Shown here piece after piece: positions 4,741-61,732 of a stretch of 64,000 nt of DNA (the first letter of the stretch is position 1; every line of letters begins with the position of its first letter). Origin of the DNA: Oscillospiraceae bacterium (GTDB lineage Bacteria; Bacillota; Clostridia; Oscillospirales; Oscillospiraceae); assembly GCA_009777235.1 (NCBI GenBank), contig WRMH01000004.1, forward strand, positions 62,001 through 126,000. Direction: 5' to 3'. The position numbers were made by a program, and so were the translations under genes. The notes beneath the pieces are model-generated. The model saw only the letters and a program-made list of their open reading frames with translations, had not been told where the DNA came from and did not search any database.

Positions 4741-5346
4741 ATGGAATTTGATATAAAACAAATTATTATCATTATTATGAGCGCGGCGTTTGTAAACAAC
4801 TATGTGCTTCGCCAGTTTTTGGGCGTTTGCCCGTTTCTGGGCGTTTCAAAGGACATTAAAAGCTCGGTCGGCATGGGGTTTTCGGTCACATTTGTTATGA
4901 TAATGGCATCCGCCGTGACATGGCCAATCCAAAGATACTTGCTCGATCCGAGCGGGCTTGAGTTTATGCAGACCGTGGTCTTTATATTGATCATCGCGAC
5001 ATTGGTTCAGCTTGTCGAGATAACGCTAAAAAAGTTTGCGCCGCCGATTCATGCTTCACTGGGTATATTCTTGCCGCTGATCGTAACAAATTGCGCCGTG
5101 CTGGGGCTTACCATATCGAATATAAATAATGAATATTCGTTTATCATGGCGATTGCCGCCGCTCTCGGCGCGGGGCTTGGGTTTTTACTCGCGATGCTGC
5201 TCTTTACGGGGATCAGGCAAGAGCTCGCGAACGCAAACCCGCCGGATTCATTTAAAGGTATGCCGATAACCCTCATATCTGCGGCGATACTGTCAATCGC
5301 GTTCTTTGCGTTTGAGGGAGTAATAGAAAACATTTTCGGAAAATAA
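4741..5346 (+). CDS. rnfA: Rnf complex subunit A (RnfA)
   Basis: Integral membrane subunit of Rnf, 201 aa, the normal length. Hydrophobic throughout, with family signatures NNYVLRQFLGVCPFLGVSK near the N-terminus and ASLGIFLPLIVTNCAVLG in the middle. The Cys residues in these two segments are those that with RnfE are thought to hold a 2Fe-2S centre within the membrane. It starts three bases after the rnfE stop codon, so translation is probably coupled. Confidence 0.96.
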   Translation: MEFDIKQIIIIIMSAAFVNNYVLRQFLGVCPFLGVSKDIKSSVGMGFSVTFVMIMASAVTWPIQRYLLDPSGLEFMQTVVFILIIATLVQLVEITLKKFAPPIHASLGIFLPLIVTNCAVLGLTISNINNEYSFIMAIAAALGAGLGFLLAMLLFTGIRQELANANPPDSFKGMPITLISAAILSIAFFAFEGVIENIFGK

Positions 5347-51324: not shown

Positions 51325-54300
51325 ATGGCTAAAAAGAAAAACAAAAAAAGGAAAATCGCACAGAGTGCGAAATTACGAAGCGGCGACGGAGTTCGTTTAT
51401 CGCAGTGCATGATAGTGAAAAACGAAGAACAAAATATCGAAAAAGCTCTTGGCTGGGCGAGGGGCATAGCTTTTGAGCAAATAGTCGTAGACACAGGTTC
51501 AACTGACCGCACCGTAGAAATAGCAGAGAAAATGGGCGCGAAGGTCTATCATTTTGAGTGGATCAAAGACTTTGCCGCCGCAAAAAATTATGCCATAGAG
51601 CAGGCGACTGGAAACTGGATAGCTTTTCTCGACGCCGATGAGTACATAACGGCAAGTGATGCAAAAAAAGTAATGCCCTTATTGCGGCATATTCAAGCCG
51701 ACAGGGATTTGCGCGAGCGTTACCTTGCGGTATGCTGCCCGTGGATTCAAATAGGCGATGAGGGCAAAACGATGCAAGTGCTTGTGCAGGAACGTATATT
51801 CCGCAATCTGCCCGAGGTGCGTTATGTGGGAAGTATTCATGAAAAGCTCAGCCTTGAGGTCAAAAACGTCGTAAGCACGGAAGATTTTCAGATAATGCAC
51901 ACAGGATATACCACCGAATCTTTTGTGCAGACAGGCAAAGCGAGCCGGAATATAGAAATGCTGCGAGCCGAGCTTTTGAAGAACCCAAAGAACATAGAAG
52001 CAAAGGCATATCTTGCTGAGGCTCTAAATTCGGCTTACCTTACAGGCACGGCAGGGCACTCCGACGCACCGGCGGCGGAAGAAATATTAAAAGAGATAGA
52101 AAAACTCTACACAGAAGTAGTAAACAGCGATATAACCATTCAGGCGGAGCGGAAAAAGAAAGCATATGCGCACTTTTTGGACAGATACATAAAAAGCCCC
52201 GACACAGACCCGATGTATGAAAAAATAAGCGAAAAAGCGTTTTTGGAATATCCTGACGACGGCAAAATTATGTGCTACCGCGCAGCCGCGTTAAACAAAA
52301 AGGGAGACTGGCAGGCTGCGCTCGACATACTTACCGAGTGCGAGGCAAAGGTCAACAATAGCGCAGGGGTCGTCTTGGCGGCGATGAATAATGAAGTGAG
52401 GGCACTTTTGCCGGGGCAGATGGTGCTTGCCGCGCAAGGACTCGGAGATACCGAGCTTGTCATAAAATACGCGGGGAATCTTCTCACGATGGATAAGCAA
52501 AATATTGCTATACTGCGCCCGTACATTGCTACGCTCATGGAGCAAGGCTTGAGCCCCGATGAGGCGGCAGAGCTGCTCTCTAAGATATATGATATGAGCG
52601 ACTCAAAAGACCTCTTGCTCATTGAGCGGGCGGCGAAAGACTGCAAGGCAGATGAGCTTGCGCACAAAATAATGAAGATGAAAGACTTGCCCGCCGCCGT
52701 AAAACAGGGGGTGCGGCTGTCGCAGTGCATGATAGTGAAAAACGAAGAACAAAATATCGAAAAAGCTCTTGGCTGGGCGAGGGGCATAGCTTTTGAGCAA
52801 ATAGTCGTAGACACAGGTTCAACTGACCGCACCGTAGAAATAGCCGAGAAAATGGGCGCGAAGGTCTATCATTTTGAGTGGATCAAAGACTTTGCCGCCG
52901 CAAAAAATTATGCCATAGAGCAGGCGGCGGGAAACTGGATAGCGTTTCTTGACGCCGATGAATATTTTGAGCCGGAGGACGCCGGAAAAGTGCTGCCGAT
53001 CTTGGAAAAGATTCAAGGCGACAGGGCTTTGCGCGAGCGTTATCTTGCGGTGTGCTGCCCGTGGATTCAGCTCAGTGATGAAAAAATCCCAATCATAGAG
53101 GGGGAACAGGCGAGGCTGTTTAGAAATCTGCCGCAAATGCGCTATATTGGGCGCATACACGAGCATTTCAAAATCGGCTCCGCGAGCACTTTGTATACGC
53201 GGGATATAAAAATCATGCATACGGGCTATACGCAAAGCGCGTATGACAGGACAGGCAAGTCGGCGAGAAATATTGACATACTGCGGGCGGAGCTTTGCGA
53301 AAGACCGGACGATATAAACATGAAAGCGTATTTGGCGGATTCTCTCGTAGGTTCGGGAGTTTCGGAAAACGCGGCGGAGGCGGAGGGGTTATTTTGGGAA
53401 ATCATCAAGAGCCGCGCCGCGATCGCGCCTGAGATAAGGAAAAAGGCATATGCGTACTTTTTGGAAAAATATGCGGATGACCCGGAGATAAATCAGGAAT
53501 ATGAGAAAATGGGAGAAAGAGCGTTCCGCGACTACCCGGACGATATTTTGCTTATATGCTATTATGCGGCGGCGCTGAATAAAAGAAAAGATTATGAATT
53601 GGCCGGCAAGGTGTTAGGAAAAATCGCGCCAAAAATACAAAACATGAACAGCATTAAAGAACTCATGGCTATCGCAGACGCGGCAAAAGACTGTGATGCT
53701 TTGGGTATTATGCGTGAGGCTATGGAAAGGGCAAAGCTGCTCTCCGGCAAAGAGTCCGCTCCGTCCGCTGGGGACATAGCCGCCGGCGGCGACGAACCCG
53801 CCGCATACATAGCGAAAAAATCATCGCGCCTTGAAGAATTTGAGAAAGAAGCGCTCGCCCTCCTTGATATAATGCGAAATTTGATTGAGTGCGGCCAGAT
53901 AGATGACGCAAAAAAGCTGCTGGGGCAATATGCGATACTAAACCCGGCAGACCAACGGATAGAAGAAATCAAAAACTTGCTGAATCTTAAAAATGGTGCG
54001 CAGAGGGAAGCGGGAAGCGCAAATCAGAAATCGCCCGGACAATCATCAAAATCCGCCGAGACGCTTTACGGCACATCGCTCACAAAAGAGGATTTGGACA
54101 AGATCGAGTCAATCTTCATTCTCACGAGCATTATCCCCAAGCGGACAGGCTTTTTCAACAGCATTTTCAACAAGATAAAGCTCATGGAAGAGCGTCTGGG
54201 CTACAAGTCCATGATTTTGACATGTATGCCTGATATTAGCCAAAGGCAAACAGAGGTGTGGCTTAAAACATTTTCGGGCAGTCAGGAAATCATGAGTCCG

Positions 54301-55707
54301 GGTACGCGAATAATCAATATATACGACTATTTTCAAAAATCATATAAGGACGGCCTTGAAAACAAGGCGCGTTATCGCGGGCAAGACGACGGGTTTAGAT
54401 ATGTTAAGTCGTCGGAGGCTTTACATGATGTTTTTGACGGTAAAGATTTAGTGCGGCAGGATTTCTATACGGGCTATAACGGGTCGCTGCGAATGGAAAG
54501 GCATTTTTGCGGCGGTGAAAAAACAAAAGAAGTGCTCTACGATGATTGGGGATATTTGAACAATATCCGCGAATATACCGACGATATAGACGCTAACGGC
54601 GGCGAACGCACCGACGCGAAATCATACACGATAAAATATTACACAACAGACGGAAAATTGTGCATGGAGGGATTTTACAGCTATACGGACGAAATTTATA
54701 AGGGTGTACAGGTTGAAAATGCCGCGCTTTTAGAGCTGCTTGTTTATGACGAAAACGGTGATGTGAGCGCAAGGTGCAAGGATAATAACGAACTTGCGGC
54801 TATTTGCCTGTCACATATGATAAGCTCAAAAGAGGACGGAAAATTTCATTTATTGGTTTTTGAGGACGGGCTGACGGCAGAAATAGCGGGGATGCTTGAT
54901 GAAAAAATCACTAACGCGGCAAAGGCGACTGTCGTCCACAGCATTTTCCTAAAAGATGCCTATGACCCGCACAGCGAGCCGCAAATGTTCTATGAGTATC
55001 TATGCAACAATCCGGCGGTATTTGACGGCACTGTTATGCTAACAAAGGCGGCACGGGATGATTTTACGAATATGTACGGCAACAGCGAAAGCGTTTTTGT
55101 CATACCCCATCCATACCCGTATGAAATCACAAAAACAGGCTTTGATGAGCGTGATACAAAAAAAGCCGTTATAGTAGCGCGGCTTTTGCCGGAAAAGATG
55201 GTAGAAGCGGCGGTAGATATTTTCAGCACGGCGGCAAGAGCCTTGCCGGACATAAAGCTCGAGATATATGGAAGAGGCCCCGAGGAAGAAAAAATCGCCG
55301 CCCGCATAAGAGAGCTTGGTATGGAAAACAATATTTTCCTTATGGGTTATACCGATGACGCCATTGCCATATACCGGAAGGCCGTGTTATTTATAATGAC
55401 AAGCTGGGCGGAGGGATATGGGCTTACATTGGTTGAAAGCATTTGCAACGGCTGCCCGGCGGTTGCCTTTGATATAAAATACGGACCGTCCGATATAATT
55501 GAAAACGGCAAGACCGGATATTTAATAACCCGCTATGATGCGGATCAATTTGCCAAAAAGCTGGTAGATTACTTTCAGGACGCAAAGAAGCAAAGAGAAA
55601 TGAGCGAAAACTGCTATTTATCCGCGCCGCGCTTTAGCACGGATAAATTTTTGGAAAACTGGCTCAATATGATTTCAAAACTAAGCGGCAAAAGAAGAGA
55701 AAAGTAA
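51325..55707 (+). CDS. Three-domain glycosyltransferase: GT2-TPR-GT2-TPR-GT4
   Basis: A 1460-aa cytoplasmic enzyme. After a Lys-rich start there is a GT2 domain (residues about 24-200; SQCMIVKNEEQNIEKAL, VVDTGSTDRT, FLDADEY) and helical TPR-like repeats. A second GT2 domain (about 462-640) has almost the same first 70 residues, then more repeats. The C-terminal part (about 925-1455) looks like a TagE/GtfA-type GT4 enzyme, with a beta-rich insert, VIPHPYPYE, EIYGRGPEEEKI and WAEGYGLTLVESICNGCPAV. The gene lies next to flagellin genes and other sugar genes, so flagellin or surface-protein O-glycosylation is the likely role. No clear Shine-Dalgarno sequence beyond GAGGG upstream of ATG 51325. 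Confidence 0.88.
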   Translation: MAKKKNKKRKIAQSAKLRSGDGVRLSQCMIVKNEEQNIEKALGWARGIAFEQIVVDTGSTDRTVEIAEKMGAKVYHFEWIKDFAAAKNYAIEQATGNWIAFLDADEYITASDAKKVMPLLRHIQADRDLRERYLAVCCPWIQIGDEGKTMQVLVQERIFRNLPEVRYVGSIHEKLSLEVKNVVSTEDFQIMHTGYTTESFVQTGKASRNIEMLRAELLKNPKNIEAKAYLAEALNSAYLTGTAGHSDAPAAEEILKEIEKLYTEVVNSDITIQAERKKKAYAHFLDRYIKSPDTDPMYEKISEKAFLEYPDDGKIMCYRAAALNKKGDWQAALDILTECEAKVNNSAGVVLAAMNNEVRALLPGQMVLAAQGLGDTELVIKYAGNLLTMDKQNIAILRPYIATLMEQGLSPDEAAELLSKIYDMSDSKDLLLIERAAKDCKADELAHKIMKMKDLPAAVKQGVRLSQCMIVKNEEQNIEKALGWARGIAFEQIVVDTGSTDRTVEIAEKMGAKVYHFEWIKDFAAAKNYAIEQAAGNWIAFLDADEYFEPEDAGKVLPILEKIQGDRALRERYLAVCCPWIQLSDEKIPIIEGEQARLFRNLPQMRYIGRIHEHFKIGSASTLYTRDIKIMHTGYTQSAYDRTGKSARNIDILRAELCERPDDINMKAYLADSLVGSGVSENAAEAEGLFWEIIKSRAAIAPEIRKKAYAYFLEKYADDPEINQEYEKMGERAFRDYPDDILLICYYAAALNKRKDYELAGKVLGKIAPKIQNMNSIKELMAIADAAKDCDALGIMREAMERAKLLSGKESAPSAGDIAAGGDEPAAYIAKKSSRLEEFEKEALALLDIMRNLIECGQIDDAKKLLGQYAILNPADQRIEEIKNLLNLKNGAQREAGSANQKSPGQSSKSAETLYGTSLTKEDLDKIESIFILTSIIPKRTGFFNSIFNKIKLMEERLGYKSMILTCMPDISQRQTEVWLKTFSGSQEIMSPGTRIINIYDYFQKSYKDGLENKARYRGQDDGFRYVKSSEALHDVFDGKDLVRQDFYTGYNGSLRMERHFCGGEKTKEVLYDDWGYLNNIREYTDDIDANGGERTDAKSYTIKYYTTDGKLCMEGFYSYTDEIYKGVQVENAALLELLVYDENGDVSARCKDNNELAAICLSHMISSKEDGKFHLLVFEDGLTAEIAGMLDEKITNAAKATVVHSIFLKDAYDPHSEPQMFYEYLCNNPAVFDGTVMLTKAARDDFTNMYGNSESVFVIPHPYPYEITKTGFDERDTKKAVIVARLLPEKMVEAAVDIFSTAARALPDIKLEIYGRGPEEEKIAARIRELGMENNIFLMGYTDDAIAIYRKAVLFIMTSWAEGYGLTLVESICNGCPAVAFDIKYGPSDIIENGKTGYLITRYDADQFAKKLVDYFQDAKKQREMSENCYLSAPRFSTDKFLENWLNMISKLSGKRREK
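51400..51606 (+). repeat. 207-bp near-identical internal duplication, copy 1 (copy 2 at 52720-52926)
   Basis: The two GT2 domains of the 1460-aa gene share 207 bp with one difference (A at 51524, C in the other copy). The flanking parts of the same domains are clearly diverged, which points to recent gene conversion or duplication of this segment. Confidence 0.93.
52720..52926 (+). repeat. 207-bp near-identical internal duplication, copy 2
   Basis: Partner of 51400-51606, offset by exactly 1320 bp (440 codons), in frame. Confidence 0.93.
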
Positions 55708-55783: not shown

Positions 55784-57883
55784 ATGGTCTTTGCGATGGT
55801 GAGGCTTTCCCAGTGCATGATAGTCAAAAACGAAGAGAAAAACATCGAAACGGCGCTAAGCTGGGCAAAGGGCATAGCCTTTGAGCAGATTGTGGTGGAC
55901 ACAGGTTCAACTGACCGCACAATCGAGATAGCAGAACAGATGGGCGCAAAAGTCCTGCGTTTTGAATGGGTAAACGATTTTTCGGCAGCCAAAAACTTCG
56001 CGCTCGAAAACGCCAGGGGAAACTGGGTGGCTTTTCTCGACGCGGACGAGTACATGAGCGGCAAGGACGCGAAAAAGCTCGCGCAAATCTTAAAAAAGAT
56101 ACAGGCAGACCCGCAGGCGCGCGGAAAATATAAGGCTTTAAATTTTCCGATAGCACATGTGGACGAAAGCGGGAAACCCTTTTCCATACAAGATCAGGAG
56201 CGCGTGTTTAGCAGCTTTGCGCGTTATGTTGGCAGAATCCATGAGCATATTGATATTCCATCGGAAAATATCGCGCATGTGGACGAGATAACGATTATCC
56301 ACACGGGCTACTCAAATTCCGCCCTTGAAGAAACGGATAAGGCCGGGCGCAATATTGCGCTTCTGCGGGCGGGGCTTTCAGATGAGCCGGGTGATTTAAA
56401 CCTGATGGTCTACCTTGCCGACTCGCTGATGACAAAAAGCGACGCGGCAAGCATAGCCGAAGCCGAAGAGCTGTTTTATGAGGCGATCACAGGCGGCGGC
56501 GATAAAAAACTGCTGCCGGGTTTGAAAAACAAGGCGTACAAACGTATTATTATGAACTATGATGTTTTGCCAAAAAAGGCTATGGAGCTTGAAGAGCTGT
56601 GCCGTGAGGCGTTTGCCGAGTTTCCGAGCGACCTTGATTTTCGTTATTACTTGGGCGTTGCTTTAAACGGCAAGGATAAGCACGGGGAAGCTCACAAGGT
56701 GCTGACAGAGCTAAAGGGCAAGCTGCAAGACGAGGGCGCGCTCACAGACAGCGAGGTCATATCGGCAGACCCGGAGCTTGTTGATAAGCAATTAGAGATA
56801 GCGGCAGAAACAAATCGGGAAAGTACAAAAGGAGGAAGCGCCATGCAAAATCCTGTGGAGCAATTTAACAAAGCAGTAGAACTCGTGCGAGAGGGGAGCT
56901 ATGAGCAGGCTCTTGAGATACTTTTGAGCCTTGAGAAAAACAAGGAGCTGATGCCGTTTTGCCATTATCAGATAGCGCGGATATCAAACATGACGGGAGA
57001 CCCGCAGACGGCTTATGATTTGTATTACAGCGCGTTTAACGCAAAGCCGGATATCATGGCCGCGCTCTCGAAAAATGCACAATCCGCCAACAAATATGTC
57101 TTTCATGGATTGAAAGATGAAAAGGAAAACACCGTATGCCCGCTGTGCGGAGCGGAGGGTACTGCTCGGTGGTGCTACTGTATGGCGGAAGCCGACGCGT
57201 TCAATGAGTTTTTTAACCCTATCCGTATGTGGATGTATTGCGAGATGTGCCATCATATGTTTGCGCGGGATTATCCCGAAAAACTGTTTTTGCACAACAC
57301 GGGGCCGAGAAGCCCAAACACAGGCCGCTTTGCGTACTATTCAAAGGTTTTGTCAAATATCAGGATGGGCGGCTTTGCCTCCGGTATGTCGCTTTTGGAG
57401 GTCGGCATTGGCGCGTGCGAATGTTTGCTTGCCGCACGTGAAATGGGTTATGAGATATTCGGCATTGATGTAATCGAGCGGCATGTCGAGGAAGCAAAGC
57501 GCAAATTTGGCTTGGACGTACAAACGGCGGATTGGAACGAGTTTGAATCGGATAGAAAATGGGATATAATAATCATGGGAGATGTGCTCGAGCATGTCAG
57601 CGACCCCGACAAGGCGCTGGCAAAGGCTGAGTCGCTGCTGTCTGACGACGGGGCTTTGTGGATATCTACGCCGTCGTTTGAGAGCGCGTTTTCGTGCGTT
57701 GTGGGTCACGACGACGCCATGCGCCGCCAGCCGTTTCATCTGAATTATTTTTCGAGGGAGTCTTTATATATGCTGCTCGAGCGCAACTACCTCATGCCGG
57801 TTGACTATCAGATTTCCGAGTATTATAATGGGTCTATGGAAGTGGTCGCGGTGAAAACGGACAGGGACATGGGACAGGGATAA
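55784..57883 (+). CDS. GT2 glycosyltransferase-TPR-zinc finger-methyltransferase fusion
   Basis: 699 aa. N-terminal GT2 domain like those in the gene before it (SQCMIVKNEEKNIETAL, VVDTGSTDRT, FLDADEYM), then TPR-like helices (about 200-430). A Cys-rich region follows (CPLCGAEGTARWCYC, CEMCHHMF), then a class I SAM-dependent methyltransferase domain (about 515-690) with LLEVGIGACECLLAARE, IFGIDVIERHVEEA and IIMGDVLEHVSDP. It could add a sugar and methylate it, or modify the glycan made nearby. ATG 55784 follows GGAAAG; ATG 55796 is also possible. Its last codons lie in the 102-bp repeat at 57789. Confidence 0.88.
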   Translation: MVFAMVRLSQCMIVKNEEKNIETALSWAKGIAFEQIVVDTGSTDRTIEIAEQMGAKVLRFEWVNDFSAAKNFALENARGNWVAFLDADEYMSGKDAKKLAQILKKIQADPQARGKYKALNFPIAHVDESGKPFSIQDQERVFSSFARYVGRIHEHIDIPSENIAHVDEITIIHTGYSNSALEETDKAGRNIALLRAGLSDEPGDLNLMVYLADSLMTKSDAASIAEAEELFYEAITGGGDKKLLPGLKNKAYKRIIMNYDVLPKKAMELEELCREAFAEFPSDLDFRYYLGVALNGKDKHGEAHKVLTELKGKLQDEGALTDSEVISADPELVDKQLEIAAETNRESTKGGSAMQNPVEQFNKAVELVREGSYEQALEILLSLEKNKELMPFCHYQIARISNMTGDPQTAYDLYYSAFNAKPDIMAALSKNAQSANKYVFHGLKDEKENTVCPLCGAEGTARWCYCMAEADAFNEFFNPIRMWMYCEMCHHMFARDYPEKLFLHNTGPRSPNTGRFAYYSKVLSNIRMGGFASGMSLLEVGIGACECLLAAREMGYEIFGIDVIERHVEEAKRKFGLDVQTADWNEFESDRKWDIIIMGDVLEHVSDPDKALAKAESLLSDDGALWISTPSFESAFSCVVGHDDAMRRQPFHLNYFSRESLYMLLERNYLMPVDYQISEYYNGSMEVVAVKTDRDMGQG

Positions 57884-57890
57884 GATGCGA
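57789..57890 (+). repeat. 102-bp direct repeat, left copy
   Basis: Covers the last 31 codons, the stop and 7 bases after the 699-aa gene. An identical copy is at 59036-59137. Together they flank the DUF1016 nuclease gene. Confidence 0.97.
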
Positions 57891-57934
57891 AATCTGGATG
57901 ATTGTTGCCACGCATGGCATTAATTGAGAAAGAG

Positions 57935-57990
57935 ATTGCGTCCACATGCGGACGCAATTGCGTGAAAGAGACTCCGTCCACATGCGGACG
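57935..57990 (+). repeat. Two neighbouring GTCC-acatgc-GGAC hairpins
   Basis: ATTGCGTCC/GGACGCAAT at 57935-57958 and CGTCC/GGACG at 57975-57990, with the same ACATGC loop. They lie just upstream of the DUF1016 gene, within the inserted segment, and may be an operator or a recognition site. Confidence 0.75.
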
Positions 57991-58007
57991 CAATGGACGA
58001 TGAACCA

Positions 58008-59051
58008 ATGAATGATTTGCAATTATCAAACAAAGCTTTTTACAATGACATACGGGATATTATCATTAACGCTCGAAGCAATGCTGTTCGCAGCGTCGAG
58101 TTTGCACGGATGATGATGTACTGGCATTTGGGTGAGCGCATTTTCGTTGAGGAACAATGTGGGCAAAACCGTGCGGAGTATGGCGAATATTTGATTCGCG
58201 ACCTTTCAAAAAAACTCGAAACTGAGTTTGGAAATGGCTTTTCCCAAAGGCAATTAGAGCGGGCGAGGAAATTCTATCGTGTTTATCCGAATGCACTTGA
58301 TGTACGCCCACAGTTGAATTGGTCGCAATACCGCCAATTAATCGCCATAGATGATAAATATAAGCGTGAATATTACGAATTGGAATCAGTAAATAACGCA
58401 TGGACGGCACGTGAGACAGAACGTCAAGTAAACTCACTTCTATATGAACGGTTACTTTTAAGTAACGATAAAGAGGCTGTACTTGCAGTCGCCCGCAAAC
58501 AGCGCACCCCAGAGATGCCAAGTGAAGTAATAAAAGACCCAATGTATCTGGAGTTCCTTGGTCTAAAACGTGAAGCGAAGTATTACGAAGAAGATATAGA
58601 ATCGGCGCTAATAAACCATTTACAGGAGTTTTTACTTGAACTCGGCAATGGATTTGCATTTGTTGCTCGGCAAAAGCGCATATTGCTTGATGATGACGAG
58701 TTTTTTGCAGACTTGATTTTTTACAATCGTTTGCTTCGCTGCTTTGTAGTTATCGAAATAAAGACTCACAAGCTTAATCATGAGGATTTAGGGCAATTGC
58801 AGATGTATGTCAATTATTATAACCGCTATGAAAAGCTGCCTGACGAGAGCCCTACAGTCGGCATATTGCTTTGCACTGCAAAAAATGATTTGTTGGCTAA
58901 AGTCACTCTGCCGGAAGACAATGCGCACATTCTGACCAGCAAATATGAGCTTTATCTGCCGTCTGAAAATGACTTGCTGGAAGAGATTAAAGATGTTATT
59001 GATATTATTGATAACAGAACGGACGAGCAAACAGAACCTCATGCCGGTTGA
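58008..59051 (+). CDS. DUF1016 (YhcG-like) PD-(D/E)XK nuclease family protein
   Basis: 347 aa from ATG 58008 (an ATG at 57993 is also in frame; neither has a good Shine-Dalgarno sequence). The N-terminal DUF1016_N part matches the family: AFYNDIRDIIINARSNAVRS, ARMMMYWHLGERIF, GNGFSQRQLERARKFYRVYP. The C-terminal PD-(D/E)XK-like nuclease domain shows DDDEFFADLIFYNRLLRCFV and VIEIKTHKL, with the acidic residues and E-x-K expected. Biological role of the family is not settled; recombination and defence have been suggested. The gene is AT-richer than its neighbours. Its last five codons and stop lie inside the right 102-bp repeat, and the insertion splits a run of glycosylation genes. Confidence 0.9.
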   Translation: MNDLQLSNKAFYNDIRDIIINARSNAVRSVEFARMMMYWHLGERIFVEEQCGQNRAEYGEYLIRDLSKKLETEFGNGFSQRQLERARKFYRVYPNALDVRPQLNWSQYRQLIAIDDKYKREYYELESVNNAWTARETERQVNSLLYERLLLSNDKEAVLAVARKQRTPEMPSEVIKDPMYLEFLGLKREAKYYEEDIESALINHLQEFLLELGNGFAFVARQKRILLDDDEFFADLIFYNRLLRCFVVIEIKTHKLNHEDLGQLQMYVNYYNRYEKLPDESPTVGILLCTAKNDLLAKVTLPEDNAHILTSKYELYLPSENDLLEEIKDVIDIIDNRTDEQTEPHAG

Positions 59052-59137
59052 CTATCAGATTTCCGAGTATTATAATGGGTCTATGGAAGTGGTCGCGGTG
59101 AAAACGGACAGGGACATGGGACAGGGATAAGATGCGA
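59036..59137 (+). repeat. 102-bp direct repeat, right copy
   Basis: Identical to 57789-57890 over all 102 bases. Its first 16 bases supply the end and stop codon of the DUF1016 gene; the rest is a non-coding remnant of the 699-aa gene end. Confidence 0.97.
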
Positions 59138-59203
59138 GCTTAGCAAAAACATTAAGCAAAAGGCACGGAGGCTTAGCGGCATAAAAAACACGGAGAGTTG
59201 ATA

Positions 59204-61732
59204 ATGCGAAAACATCAGCAGAGGCAAATACTCGACATACTGCAAACGCTGTATTCCGCGCAATCGGCAGGGCTTTATGCGGACTGCCAGGAGGGCGCGA
59301 TCGGCGTGGGAGAGTATATCGAATCCATCATGGGAGAGGGGACGCAAACGGTCACGCTGCTTGAGGAATATTGCGAGCTGCTTTTTAAGGCGTCGGGCGG
59401 CGAACTGTCGGAGCGTCCTGAGAAACAACTGCGGAAAAAGCTGATACTCATAGAAAACAGCGTAAAAAACGAGTTGAAGCCGACAAAAATAGAAGCCGTA
59501 TTTTTAAGCTACAAAGCGAGCATGAGCGACAGTATAGAATCTATATACCTCGCGGCAAAGGACGACCCGGCCTGCGACGCATATTGGATTCCTATTCCGT
59601 ATGTCGAGCGCGGGGCAGACGGACGCGCTGATAAGACGATATTTGAAGGTTCAAAATTTTATCCCGATTATATTGAATGTACAGACTGGCAGACATATGA
59701 CATCGAAGCGCGGCGGCCTGATGTGATATTTACGTTTAATCCGTATGACGCGGGAAACTATGTGACGAGCGTGCATCCGGCGTTTTATTGCGAGAGGCTG
59801 CGAGGCTTGACGGATTTGCTTGTGTATGTCCCATATTTTGTGGCGACGGGAGACCATGTAGAGGAGCATTTTTGCACGGTCGCGGGCTGTGTGTACGCGC
59901 ACAAGGTAATCGTCCAGTCGGAGGCGGTAAGAGACAGATATGTCCGTGTGTTTCGCGAGGCATACGGCGACAGTTTAGGCAAGCCGGAAGATAAGTTTAT
60001 CGCGCTCGGCAGCCCGAAATTTGACAAGGTGATCAATTCAAAGCGCGAGGACTTCAAGCTGCCGGAGGCATGGGCGCGGTTGATAACTCCGCAAGGCGGA
60101 GAAAATAAGAAAGTCATCTTTTATAACACGAGTGTCGGTTCGCTTTTGGCGGGCAATGAGCGGTATTTGAAAAAGCTGCGCTCTGTGTTAGATACATTCC
60201 GCGGGCGCGATGACGTTGTTCTCTGGTGGCGTCCGCATCCTTTGAATGAAGCAACGTATGCGAGTATGCGCCCGCAGCTTGCCGAGGAATATAAAAATAT
60301 CGTCAAAGAGTATCGCGCCGAGGGCTGGGGCATATATGATGATACACCGGATTTGCACAGGGCGCTGGCGTGGACGGATGCGTATTATGGGGATATGAGC
60401 TCGCTGGTGGCAATGTATGAGGTGACGGGCAAGCCGGTGATGATGAGTAATGTAGACTTGTTATTGCACAAAACAAGTTGTATCGCTATTGCGTTTGAAA
60501 ACCAATATTATGATGGTTCGGATTTTTGGTTCATTCCACGCAATATGAATGCTTTGTTTAAATTTAGCGAGTATGATTGGCAGACAAAATACATTGGAGC
60601 AATACCGAACACGACCTTTTTTGCCGAACCGATATTTGCGAAAATTGTTGAATATGACGGCAAATTATATTTTGCCCCGTCATGTGCTGATTATATTGGA
60701 GTGTACGACAAAAAAAATGACAGTTTTGAAACCTTGTGCTTTGCTGATTTGGGCAGTGCCAGAAACAACAAATTTTCGTTTGCATATGTTTATGGTAACA
60801 ATATCTTTTTCTGTGGTTTTACATACCCGGCGATTATAAGGTTGGATACAACAACAGGTGCGTTATCACATTATTCTGACTATGTACCAAAAGTAAGCTC
60901 ACTTGACACTAACAATAAAAAATTGTTTTTTGATGCCGGGTGCGCAGACGGCAACAAAATATACTTACCTGTTTATAGTGCTAATGCGGTTGTTGCATTT
61001 GATATGGATACATATAAATCAACAGTAATTGAAATCCCGAGTAAAAACAATGGTTACGATGATATTTGTTTTGACGGCGATTATTTCTGGATTGCATCGA
61101 GCCATAGTGAAGGCACTGTTATTAAGTGGCATCCTGAAAAAGGCGCTACCGAAATTGAAATTCCCAATGAGTGGGCTATTGGCGATTACTGGTCTGTAAA
61201 TTGCGTCAACGGATATGCGTGGTTCTTACCGTGCTATGGTGATGCTGCGTTTAAAATAAACACAATAACAAATGAGGTTGAAATTGCTGAACCGTTTATA
61301 CATCCATGCAGACCAAAAGCCAACGAAAAAGATAAAACTTTCGCTTATTATTTCAGGAAATCAGTAGTGAATAACACCATATATGCCCATACAGGAACCG
61401 GCAACACTCATATTTCGTATAACACAGCGACAGGAGATTTGCGCGAAACAAAAATTATTATTAATGACGAGGATAGAGAAAAAATCTTATTCGATACAGT
61501 ATTAAGTCACCGTGGCAATAATTCACCTAACTCAATGAGTGATTGCATGTTTAGGGAAACTACGGCTTTTAGCCTTGACGACTTCATGAATCAACTACCA
61601 AACGATCAGATGAAAACATCGAAAAAGATTAATGAAATGCAAGCAGAGGGGTGTCGAAAGGGCATTGCCAATGAGAATGGTACTGCGGGTCAAAAAATAT
61701 ATGAAGAATTTCGCAAAGTGGCATTAATTTAG
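59204..61732 (+). CDS. TagF-like (CDP-glycerol) phosphotransferase fused to a beta-propeller-like domain
   Basis: 842 aa from ATG 59204, 7 nt after GGAGAG. Residues about 90-420 resemble the CDP-glycerol:poly(glycerophosphate) glycerophosphotransferase family: PDVIFTFNPYD, LVYVPYF, ALGSPKFDKV, VIFYNTSVGSLL, WWRPHPLNEAT, YYGDMSSLVAMYEVTGKPVM. Residues about 440-760 form a different domain of repeated strands (KYIGAIPNTTFFAEPIF, IVEYDGKLYFAPS, DGNKIYLPVYSANAVVAF) that looks like a six- or seven-bladed propeller. Near 60450 the DNA changes from the local GC-rich style to AT-rich style, which continues in the genes that follow. The gene may be a chimera joined at the edge of an acquired segment. 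Confidence 0.75.
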   Translation: MRKHQQRQILDILQTLYSAQSAGLYADCQEGAIGVGEYIESIMGEGTQTVTLLEEYCELLFKASGGELSERPEKQLRKKLILIENSVKNELKPTKIEAVFLSYKASMSDSIESIYLAAKDDPACDAYWIPIPYVERGADGRADKTIFEGSKFYPDYIECTDWQTYDIEARRPDVIFTFNPYDAGNYVTSVHPAFYCERLRGLTDLLVYVPYFVATGDHVEEHFCTVAGCVYAHKVIVQSEAVRDRYVRVFREAYGDSLGKPEDKFIALGSPKFDKVINSKREDFKLPEAWARLITPQGGENKKVIFYNTSVGSLLAGNERYLKKLRSVLDTFRGRDDVVLWWRPHPLNEATYASMRPQLAEEYKNIVKEYRAEGWGIYDDTPDLHRALAWTDAYYGDMSSLVAMYEVTGKPVMMSNVDLLLHKTSCIAIAFENQYYDGSDFWFIPRNMNALFKFSEYDWQTKYIGAIPNTTFFAEPIFAKIVEYDGKLYFAPSCADYIGVYDKKNDSFETLCFADLGSARNNKFSFAYVYGNNIFFCGFTYPAIIRLDTTTGALSHYSDYVPKVSSLDTNNKKLFFDAGCADGNKIYLPVYSANAVVAFDMDTYKSTVIEIPSKNNGYDDICFDGDYFWIASSHSEGTVIKWHPEKGATEIEIPNEWAIGDYWSVNCVNGYAWFLPCYGDAAFKINTITNEVEIAEPFIHPCRPKANEKDKTFAYYFRKSVVNNTIYAHTGTGNTHISYNTATGDLRETKIIINDEDREKILFDTVLSHRGNNSPNSMSDCMFRETTAFSLDDFMNQLPNDQMKTSKKINEMQAEGCRKGIANENGTAGQKIYEEFRKVALI

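Follow-up and report, generated by a model that had tools for sequence, protein, structure and literature searches.

Little is known about how isolated defence genes are mobilized when they lack their own transposase or integrase. Some prophages, for instance at E. coli icd, contain the 3' end of the gene they target, and this element-borne gene end, which holds silent changes, restores the target; such prophages also bring an integrase and a phage genome. Passages of PMC5704250 describe CIMEs as decayed ICEs or IMEs which retain attL and attR and are devoid of integration and transfer genes. In Dehalococcoides, 15 ssrA islands without integration modules are termed possible cis-mobilizable elements (PMC3146451); these islands use one target gene, have 20-bp repeats and possess integrase-bearing relatives.

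The insert described here lies in a 64-kb stretch of DNA from an Oscillospiraceae bacterium (hereafter the window). Like CIMEs it displays attL- and attR-like direct repeats at a restored target gene end and no integration or transfer genes, but it measures only 1.2 kb and carries one gene, and neither a related intact element nor a common att site was found. As with the ssrA islands, only cargo is present between gene-end repeats, whereas the loci examined here involve several targets, repeats of 55-102 bp and one gene per island. The restoration of the target by an element-borne gene end with silent changes is shared with the icd-type prophages, although the window insert lacks their integrase and phage genome.

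The host gene (55784..57883, + strand) encodes a 699-aa protein with glycosyltransferase 2, TPR and methyltransferase regions (Pfam PF00535 and PF13489). The initial annotation had proposed that perfect 102-bp direct repeats surround a DUF1016 gene, and indeed two 100% identical copies are found at 57789..57890 (left, attL-like) and 59036..59137 (right, attR-like), 1247 bp apart from start to start and separated by 1145 bp of unique sequence with a GC content of 0.418 (57891..59035). The left copy is, as had been claimed, the 3' end of the glycosyltransferase-methyltransferase gene and reaches 7 bp beyond its stop codon; since it completes the 699-aa ORF, the proposal that the insertion left the host gene whole is supported. 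The next gene (59198..61732, + strand, 844 aa, no Pfam match at E 0.001) starts 60 bp past the right copy. The repeat is mostly protein-coding sequence and is not a chance occurrence, given that the window contains only one longer exact direct repeat, of 125 bp, shared by two glycosyltransferase domains. On its sense strand, the insert holds a single ORF of at least 100 aa, the 352-aa DUF1016/YhcG ORF, so that the reported absence of a transposase or integrase holds for the insert; furthermore, tblastn with three tyrosine recombinase queries detected no such gene in the whole window. The base composition differs as announced (GC 0.413 for the DUF1016 gene vs 0.499 for the host gene). The same annotation had the nuclease gene borrow its last five codons and stop from the right repeat: the stop does lie there, but the repeat contributes only four complete codons ahead of it (P H A G), plus the final base of the E codon.

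The DUF1016 gene (57993..59051, + strand, with a second possible start at 58008) encodes a protein of the putative PD-(D/E)XK type, with Pfam matches above cut-off to DUF1016_N (125.9 bits) and YhcG_C (180.8 bits) and a match to the PADLOC candidate defence model PDC-S02 (3.1e-133). Its predicted structure (pLDDT 74.7, pTM 0.51) gave weak fold matches in Foldseek to Card1 (E 9.5e-5) and to the repair endonuclease 2vld (E 4.9e-4), with TM-scores of 0.23-0.40, both of which we take to be PD-(D/E)XK proteins, while no sequence relative was found in the PDB at E 1. The nuclease is a candidate anti-phage defence protein. Elsewhere, of 11 plasmid loci (taken from 463 records with a DUF1016 match) 4 have the DUF1016 gene beside type I restriction genes, and of ten E. 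coli loci (from 4412 genomes with a match) most have it next to nanQ; in one plasmid locus (L244) the DUF1016 gene shares an overlap with the end of a gene for a site-specific integrase.

In order to establish how often DUF1016 genes are bracketed, loci with at least 500 bp of flank and ORFs of at least 600 bp were counted in four sets. Pooled, 14 of 111 DUF1016 genes are closely flanked on either side by copies of a direct repeat, compared with 2 of 349 ORFs used as controls (p=9e-8). The first set was exploratory and includes the window's own locus (11/64); the others gave 3/12, 0/24 for further family members and 0/11 for the plasmid loci. The follow-up sets alone give a weaker difference, 3/47 DUF1016 genes vs 0/97 controls (p=0.03). 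Some partial or sub-threshold DUF1016 places were not taken into the samples, and a locus with a wider repeat at tRNA-Arg spanning other ORFs (L143) was excluded from the counts. The window locus is hence one case of a recurrent pattern, of which we find no description in passages of PMC4316617, PMC7967276, PMC3146451 and PMC5704250.

Of the 14 DUF1016 brackets, only three consist of a clear gene 3' end with a single gene inside. Besides the window, these are L146a, which follows a 341-aa ORF, presumably WYL-type (repeat of 80 bp, 89% identity), and L163, which follows a tRNA-Ala (60 bp, 100%), and the search proposed earlier, for repeated host-gene ends around further DUF1016 genes, was thereby successful. 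Abi_2, a family unrelated to DUF1016, exhibits the same bracket in 2 of 15 usable genes (17 of 21 listed places taken), a rate which cannot be distinguished from 14/111 at such a sample size. Both hold one gene: L252, which belongs to a genome assembled as one contig, after a tRNA-Lys (55 bp, 98%), and L256, after a 369-aa ORF (95 bp, 96%). For a third family, ORF6N, brackets were found in 0 of 4 usable loci, too few to inform (7 of 11 listed places taken, 6 used for contig ends and 4 for brackets). Overall, among the DUF1016 and Abi_2 genes tested, roughly one in eight retains a bracketing repeat.

In all five 3'-end cases (three DUF1016 and two Abi_2) the repeat corresponds to the 3' end of a CDS or tRNA and stops 0-7 bp beyond it: at the stop codon (L146a, L256), at the CCA (L163), 6 bp after the CCA (L252) or 7 bp after the stop (window). 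The cargo gene has the direction of the preceding gene in 5/5. Four codons changed between the copies of L256, all silently, and those of L146a differ by 5 silent and 3 replacement changes. No common sequence was evident by eye among the five repeats, so that one integrase is unlikely to serve them all. The recurrence of the bracket, its borders at gene ends and the mostly silent divergence fit a CIME-like island carrying a target-restoring gene end, and the same features argue against a homing nuclease or a random staggered cut.

We consider it reasonably probable that the insert is a one-gene mini-island without integrase, which acts like a cis-mobilizable element with DUF1016 as its cargo. 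An incoming DNA circle or fragment would have held the DUF1016 gene and a copy of the host gene 3' end, and recombination with the chromosomal version of this end would let the host gene retain a complete end, the left copy, and leave the old end at the far side as the right copy. The recombinase would come from elsewhere: either a site-specific integrase would act in trans, or RecA would use the 102 bp. The nuclease would travel as cargo, and later excision may be possible. The repeat would probably supply promoters as well: the left copy contains a promoter-like site, TTGACT-17-TATAAT (57801..57829, + strand, a consensus match only, 11 of 12), which may serve the nuclease gene, and the right copy another, likewise a consensus match only (59048..59076, + strand), upstream of the next host gene, which it may serve. 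Weighing against this reading are the negative tblastn search for a tyrosine recombinase as helper, the single occurrence of the insert's left end in the genome, the lack of an evident shared sequence among the five repeats, the failure to find an empty site, the weaker follow-up counts and the small number of brackets at clear gene 3' ends.

The nearest competing explanation, to which we give an appreciably lower probability, is RecA-type capture without any site-specific enzyme, in which one-ended or circular DNA bearing DUF1016 and a homologous gene end integrates homologously and the repeats are the shared homology. The repeats do belong to the host gene of each locus in all five 3'-end cases, the window yielded no tyrosine recombinase, and at L010 two DUF1016 genes are stacked within one repeat. 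However, such capture alone leaves unexplained both the border at the gene end in 5/5 3'-end cases and the pick-up of single genes.

Could the repeats instead be a long target-site duplication, produced by staggered nicks some 60-180 bp apart and filled after insertion by some transposition? This is improbable: the perfect repeats of the window and L163 and the variable repeat lengths among loci would suit it, but the borders fall at gene ends, the divergence in L256 and L146a is biased towards silent changes, and no inverted repeats of at least 16 bp were found at the insert ends. The latter, together with a duplication of 102 bp, also led us to reject a short target duplication by a DNA transposon.

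The initial annotation had suggested that the DUF1016 protein itself moves the gene through a homing-type break. Indeed, its Pfam family and the weak match of its predicted fold point to a PD-(D/E)XK nuclease, brackets are far above those of control ORFs, and many DUF1016 genes carry palindromes which could be their own sites. Nevertheless, 97 of the 111 DUF1016 genes have no such repeat, and the bracket around the unrelated Abi_2 genes means that the arrangement is not nuclease-specific and that the DUF1016 nuclease is probably cargo and not mover. With borders at gene ends and mostly silent divergence, unlike cut-and-fill, homing was dropped as the main reading following the Abi_2 comparison, and we now regard it as very improbable. 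The bracket pattern shows that a cargo protein need not be the mover.

An assembly error in the draft genome is held to be equally improbable. The window's genome is in 58 contigs, and for 9 of 66 DUF1016 places the contig ends no more than 1 kb away, where 2.7 were expected (contigs above 15 kb, places on shorter ones being left out). Yet each insert end is joined to a 102-bp copy, diverged repeats at other loci cannot be one copy read twice, and L252 belongs to a single-contig genome. The contig ends near DUF1016 genes suggest that assemblies break there, so that the bracket pattern may be undercounted.

Empty sites were sought in relatives, in a collection of one genome per species. In 59 relatives, with five candidates scored for each genome, no DNA match spanned the arrangement, and tblastn found neither a DUF1016 homologue nor conserved gene order in stretches from ten of them. 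Homologues of both neighbours of the insert are present in L074 and L078; in the latter, about 470 bp separate a homologue of the glycosyltransferase half from a downstream, co-directional homologue of the next gene, but the absence of the methyltransferase half prevents L078 from counting as a clean empty site. Searches across the genera of L163 and L146, with one genome per genus, reached only their own genomes and gave no empty site.

The remaining DUF1016 brackets are more heterogeneous: a promoter region (L010b), a DUF1016-like fragment (L010a), ORF6N-like fragments (L060), non-coding sequence (L056, L160), gene 5' ends in arrays (L118, L119), a cassette array (L135), a reverse-transcriptase locus (L206), and a sequence resembling a gene fragment (L212); L204 is the eleventh. 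An interspersed repeat was rejected, as the L010 repeat is confined to its own locus in its genome and the left end of the window insert has no second copy elsewhere in the source genome. L010, L056, L060 and L015 gave no Rfam match at the gathering threshold. More tentatively, defence genes from unrelated families (DUF1016, Abi_2, probably others) might travel singly as a hitherto unrecognised class of islands of about 1.2-1.5 kb, each made of cargo and a private host gene end (a CDS 3' end, a tRNA 3' end, or a promoter and 5' end), expressed from host signals and inserted by general recombination without a dedicated enzyme. Gene-end repeat borders and silent divergence form a countable scar, which makes the movement of lone genes testable across genomes.

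Upstream of the nuclease gene lies a palindrome, ATTGCGTCCACATGCGGACGCAAT (57935..57958), whose arms are identical to those of a palindrome inside the related DUF1016 gene of L111; a second, slightly altered copy (57971..57994) extends into the start codon. Autoregulation via an upstream copy of the in-gene palindrome was considered and set aside, as a strong upstream match occurs in 4 of 80 genes against a background of 0.5%, too few for a general rule. Passages of PMC4316617, PMC7967276, PMC3146451 and PMC5704250 hold no description of the in-gene palindrome. In a count without partial genes below 300 aa and without identical genes, most DUF1016 genes examined exhibit a strong DNA palindrome at a single position in the coding sequence; its arms change, and in E. 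coli yhcG it is present as one to three units.

The DUF1016 gene of the window (57993-59051) lies between two copies of a perfect 102-bp direct repeat (57789-57890 and 59036-59137), confirming the coordinates in the initial annotation. The left copy overlaps the glycosyltransferase-methyltransferase ORF (55784-57883, forward strand; 699 aa) from within codon 669 onward and runs to 7 bp beyond the ORF's stop, and the spacing between the copies is 1145 bp. The sole sense ORF of at least 100 aa within this spacing encodes a 352-aa protein with DUF1016_N and YhcG_C domains, and its GC content is 0.413 compared to 0.499 for the host gene. As annotated, it borrows its stop from the right copy, into which it reaches 16 bp, but together with four codons and one base rather than five codons. 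Each copy also contains TTGACT-17-TATAAT, an 11/12 promoter match by consensus only. The identity of the copies had been taken to indicate a recent event, which is plausible, although gene conversion would equally keep them identical. Upstream, a 1460-aa ORF (51325-55707) carries two glycosyltransferase-2 domains sharing identical stretches of 125 and 81 bases, and a third such domain, in the host gene, shows 75-78% DNA identity.

A gene was scored as bracketed when each of its ends had a copy of the same direct repeat (55 bits or more) no further than 500 bp away, and other ORFs with a length of 200 aa or more from the same stretches served as controls. The first set drew on the window's own genus and family and on the 30 loci from a public genome scan; it includes the window, was partly inspected before the test was fixed, and gave brackets at 11 of 64 DUF1016 genes versus 2 of 190 controls (p = 6e-6). 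With the test unchanged, they were found at 3/12 DUF1016 genes in a phylum-wide follow-up (controls 0/22), at 0/24 further family members (0/63) and at 0/11 plasmid loci (0/12); pooled without the first set, the follow-ups amount to 3/47 versus 0/97 (p = 0.03). Over all sets 14 of 111 DUF1016 genes are bracketed versus 2 of 349 controls, comparison-family controls included. Flanking repeats, for which the initial annotation had proposed a search, thus occur at other DUF1016 genes, and the window arrangement belongs to a pattern that recurs and has been counted.

The repeats were sorted by kind for 13 of the 14 DUF1016 brackets (all but locus L204; the two control matches stand outside the sorting). 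In three of the 14 the repeat is clearly the 3' end of a gene and encloses the DUF1016 gene alone: the window, L146a, with an 80-bp repeat (89%) behind a 341-aa ORF that is presumably WYL-type, and L163, where the last 60 bases of a tRNA-Ala are found again 1.4 kb downstream. The other repeats are a promoter-like region (L010b), the same 90-bp unit arrayed behind DUF1016 and behind a gene we take to be ORF6N-like (L135), sequence similar to the terminal part of a protein gene nearby (L206, a locus beside a reverse-transcriptase-like gene), non-coding sequence (L056, L160), an ORF6N-like gene fragment (L060), a DUF1016-like fragment through which L010a was counted, and an apparent gene fragment (L212). 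In two bins labelled archaea (L118, L119) a short secreted-protein-like gene supplies the repeat, its 5' end recurring ahead of several consecutive small genes. The class is therefore heterogeneous, with gene 3' ends as its best-defined kind. In the rows of L118 (2700-6500, Nanoarchaeota-labelled bin) and L119 (3800-6000, Woesearchaeota-labelled bin), several of the small genes, presumably DUF1016 and nucleotidyltransferase- or toxin-antitoxin-like, are preceded by the 5' end of that one gene. At L206 (2701-5900) the DUF1016 gene lies between the repeat and the reverse-transcriptase-like gene, a layout that we would liken to a diversity-generating retroelement.

The window's genome has 8 PF06250 matches in 2.63 Mb. 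Two further DUF1016 genes stand there in tandem (L010), ahead of a gene that we take from its sequence to be phosphoglycerate-mutase-type, and a 43-65 bp repeat of 94-98% identity, with no match elsewhere in this genome at E 1, is situated upstream of each of the three; TTGCAT-17-TAGACT is seen within it by eye. Two loci of one genome thus hold DUF1016 genes inside host-gene-boundary repeats. As this genome is a draft in 58 contigs, an assembly artefact has to be considered, but assembly error would not yield the diverged L010 copies, and diverged copies elsewhere, as well as the single-contig genome of L252 described below, also argue against it. Of 66 DUF1016 places on contigs above 15 kb, 9 have a contig end no more than 1 kb away (2.7 expected), so that assemblies may be interrupted by the repeats at these genes and the bracket count may be low.

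Abi_2 (PF07751), presumably another single-gene defence family, was taken as comparison from 250 genomes of the window's family; 17 of 21 listed places were fetched and 15 had enough flank. Brackets were found at 2 of these 15 (p = 0.009 versus pooled controls), a rate not distinguishable from that of DUF1016 at this sample size. At L252 a tRNA-Lys is followed by a lone Abi_2 gene and a 55-bp copy of the tRNA-Lys 3' end, and at L256 a 369-aa ORF is followed by a lone Abi_2 gene and a 95-bp copy of the ORF's 3' end. Both are the window's anatomy with unrelated cargo; hence the DUF1016 protein is not required for the arrangement, and the part in mobility that the initial annotation thought possible for it, in the manner of a homing nuclease, is not supported. 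With ORF6N as comparison family, 0 of 4 usable loci were bracketed. Four of 6 ORF6N places used, from 11 listed, on contigs above 15 kb are within 1 kb of a contig end (G007:C26, G002:C52, G002:C45 and G007:C8; 0.43 expected), which suggests repeats beside those genes that assembly failed to resolve.

In the five 3'-end cases the repeat's 3' border coincides with the stop codon in L146a and L256 and with CCA in L163; it lies 6 bp past CCA in L252 and 7 bp past the stop in the window. Between the copies of L256 four codons are changed, all silently, and in L146a five of eight changed codons are silent, with the frame intact to the stop in both copies. A staggered cut would have no reason to stop at gene ends, nor a drifting relic to change silently. 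Integrative elements carry a gene end restoring their target, and by analogy both features are as would be expected from such an element. The best reading is a one-gene island that lacks an integrase, has a gene end as its attachment repeat and carries the nuclease as cargo. It would work like a cis-mobilizable element and may be one. The annotated lack of a transposase or integrase holds for tyrosine recombinases resembling the three queries to which the search was limited, none being found in the window; recombination would be carried out by a factor from outside or by RecA. The five repeats have no evident common sequence by eye, so that one outside integrase is unlikely to explain them all, and this is the weak point of the island reading. 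The cargo has the orientation of the preceding gene in 5/5 cases and a promoter-like site lies inside the repeat in the window and L010; the insert may therefore be read from the host's signals, the next gene retaining its own.

Within the coding sequence, a palindrome scoring at least 9 was found in 50 of 70 full-length DUF1016 genes of the first set (L009-L171) versus 20 of 119 other ORFs, at aa 85-140 in 49 of the 50 and often directly ahead of a (S/P)WSH(N/Y)-like motif. The replicate (L190, L201-L249) gave 32/45 versus 7/60, at aa 80-215 in 27 of 32. Synonymous shuffles have a mean score of 6.9, yet the best of 8 reaches 9 in 43% of genes. The arms vary between genes and the amino acids vary along with them, so that what is kept seems to be the nucleic acid palindrome. 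This finding may be stronger than that of the brackets. In five E. coli yhcG alleles (L191, L198, L200, L192 and L193, position 2468 on), 1-3 tandem palindromic units occupy the same coding spot, unit number and outer arms differing by strain; the annotated-frameshifted alleles have one unit left (L193) or two (L192). Extragenic copies lie near the gene in the window, L212 (~4990-5020), L010 (10642-10690 and 9510-9558), L114 and L236. The window gene is without an in-gene palindrome; two near-identical ones precede its start codon, behind the left repeat copy (57935-57994), and share their arms with the palindrome inside the gene of its relative L111. At L212 the upstream copy almost equals the in-gene one. 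Upstream scores of at least 12 occur in 4 of 80 genes (background 0.5%). Genes we take to be ORF6N-like (L060 1572-3319 and 4635-4800; L135 4901-5929) also show, by eye, apparent coding palindromes with changing arms, and at L060 fragments around the palindrome are situated upstream.

The window's DUF1016 protein matches the PADLOC PDC-S02 models (3.1e-133) and phrog_22762. Its predicted structure is of middling confidence, and the best PDB matches, presumably PD-(D/E)XK nucleases, have low TM-scores. The genome scan places its nearest relatives, with a best segment of 67-69% identity, in bins labelled Lachnospiraceae, Breznakibacter, Planctomycetaceae and Dysgonamonadaceae, and a 72% relative occurs on a fecal scaffold, without annotation, in a phage collection; such a spread is a mark of lateral transfer. 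Type I restriction genes adjoin the DUF1016 gene in 4 of the 11 fetched plasmid loci.
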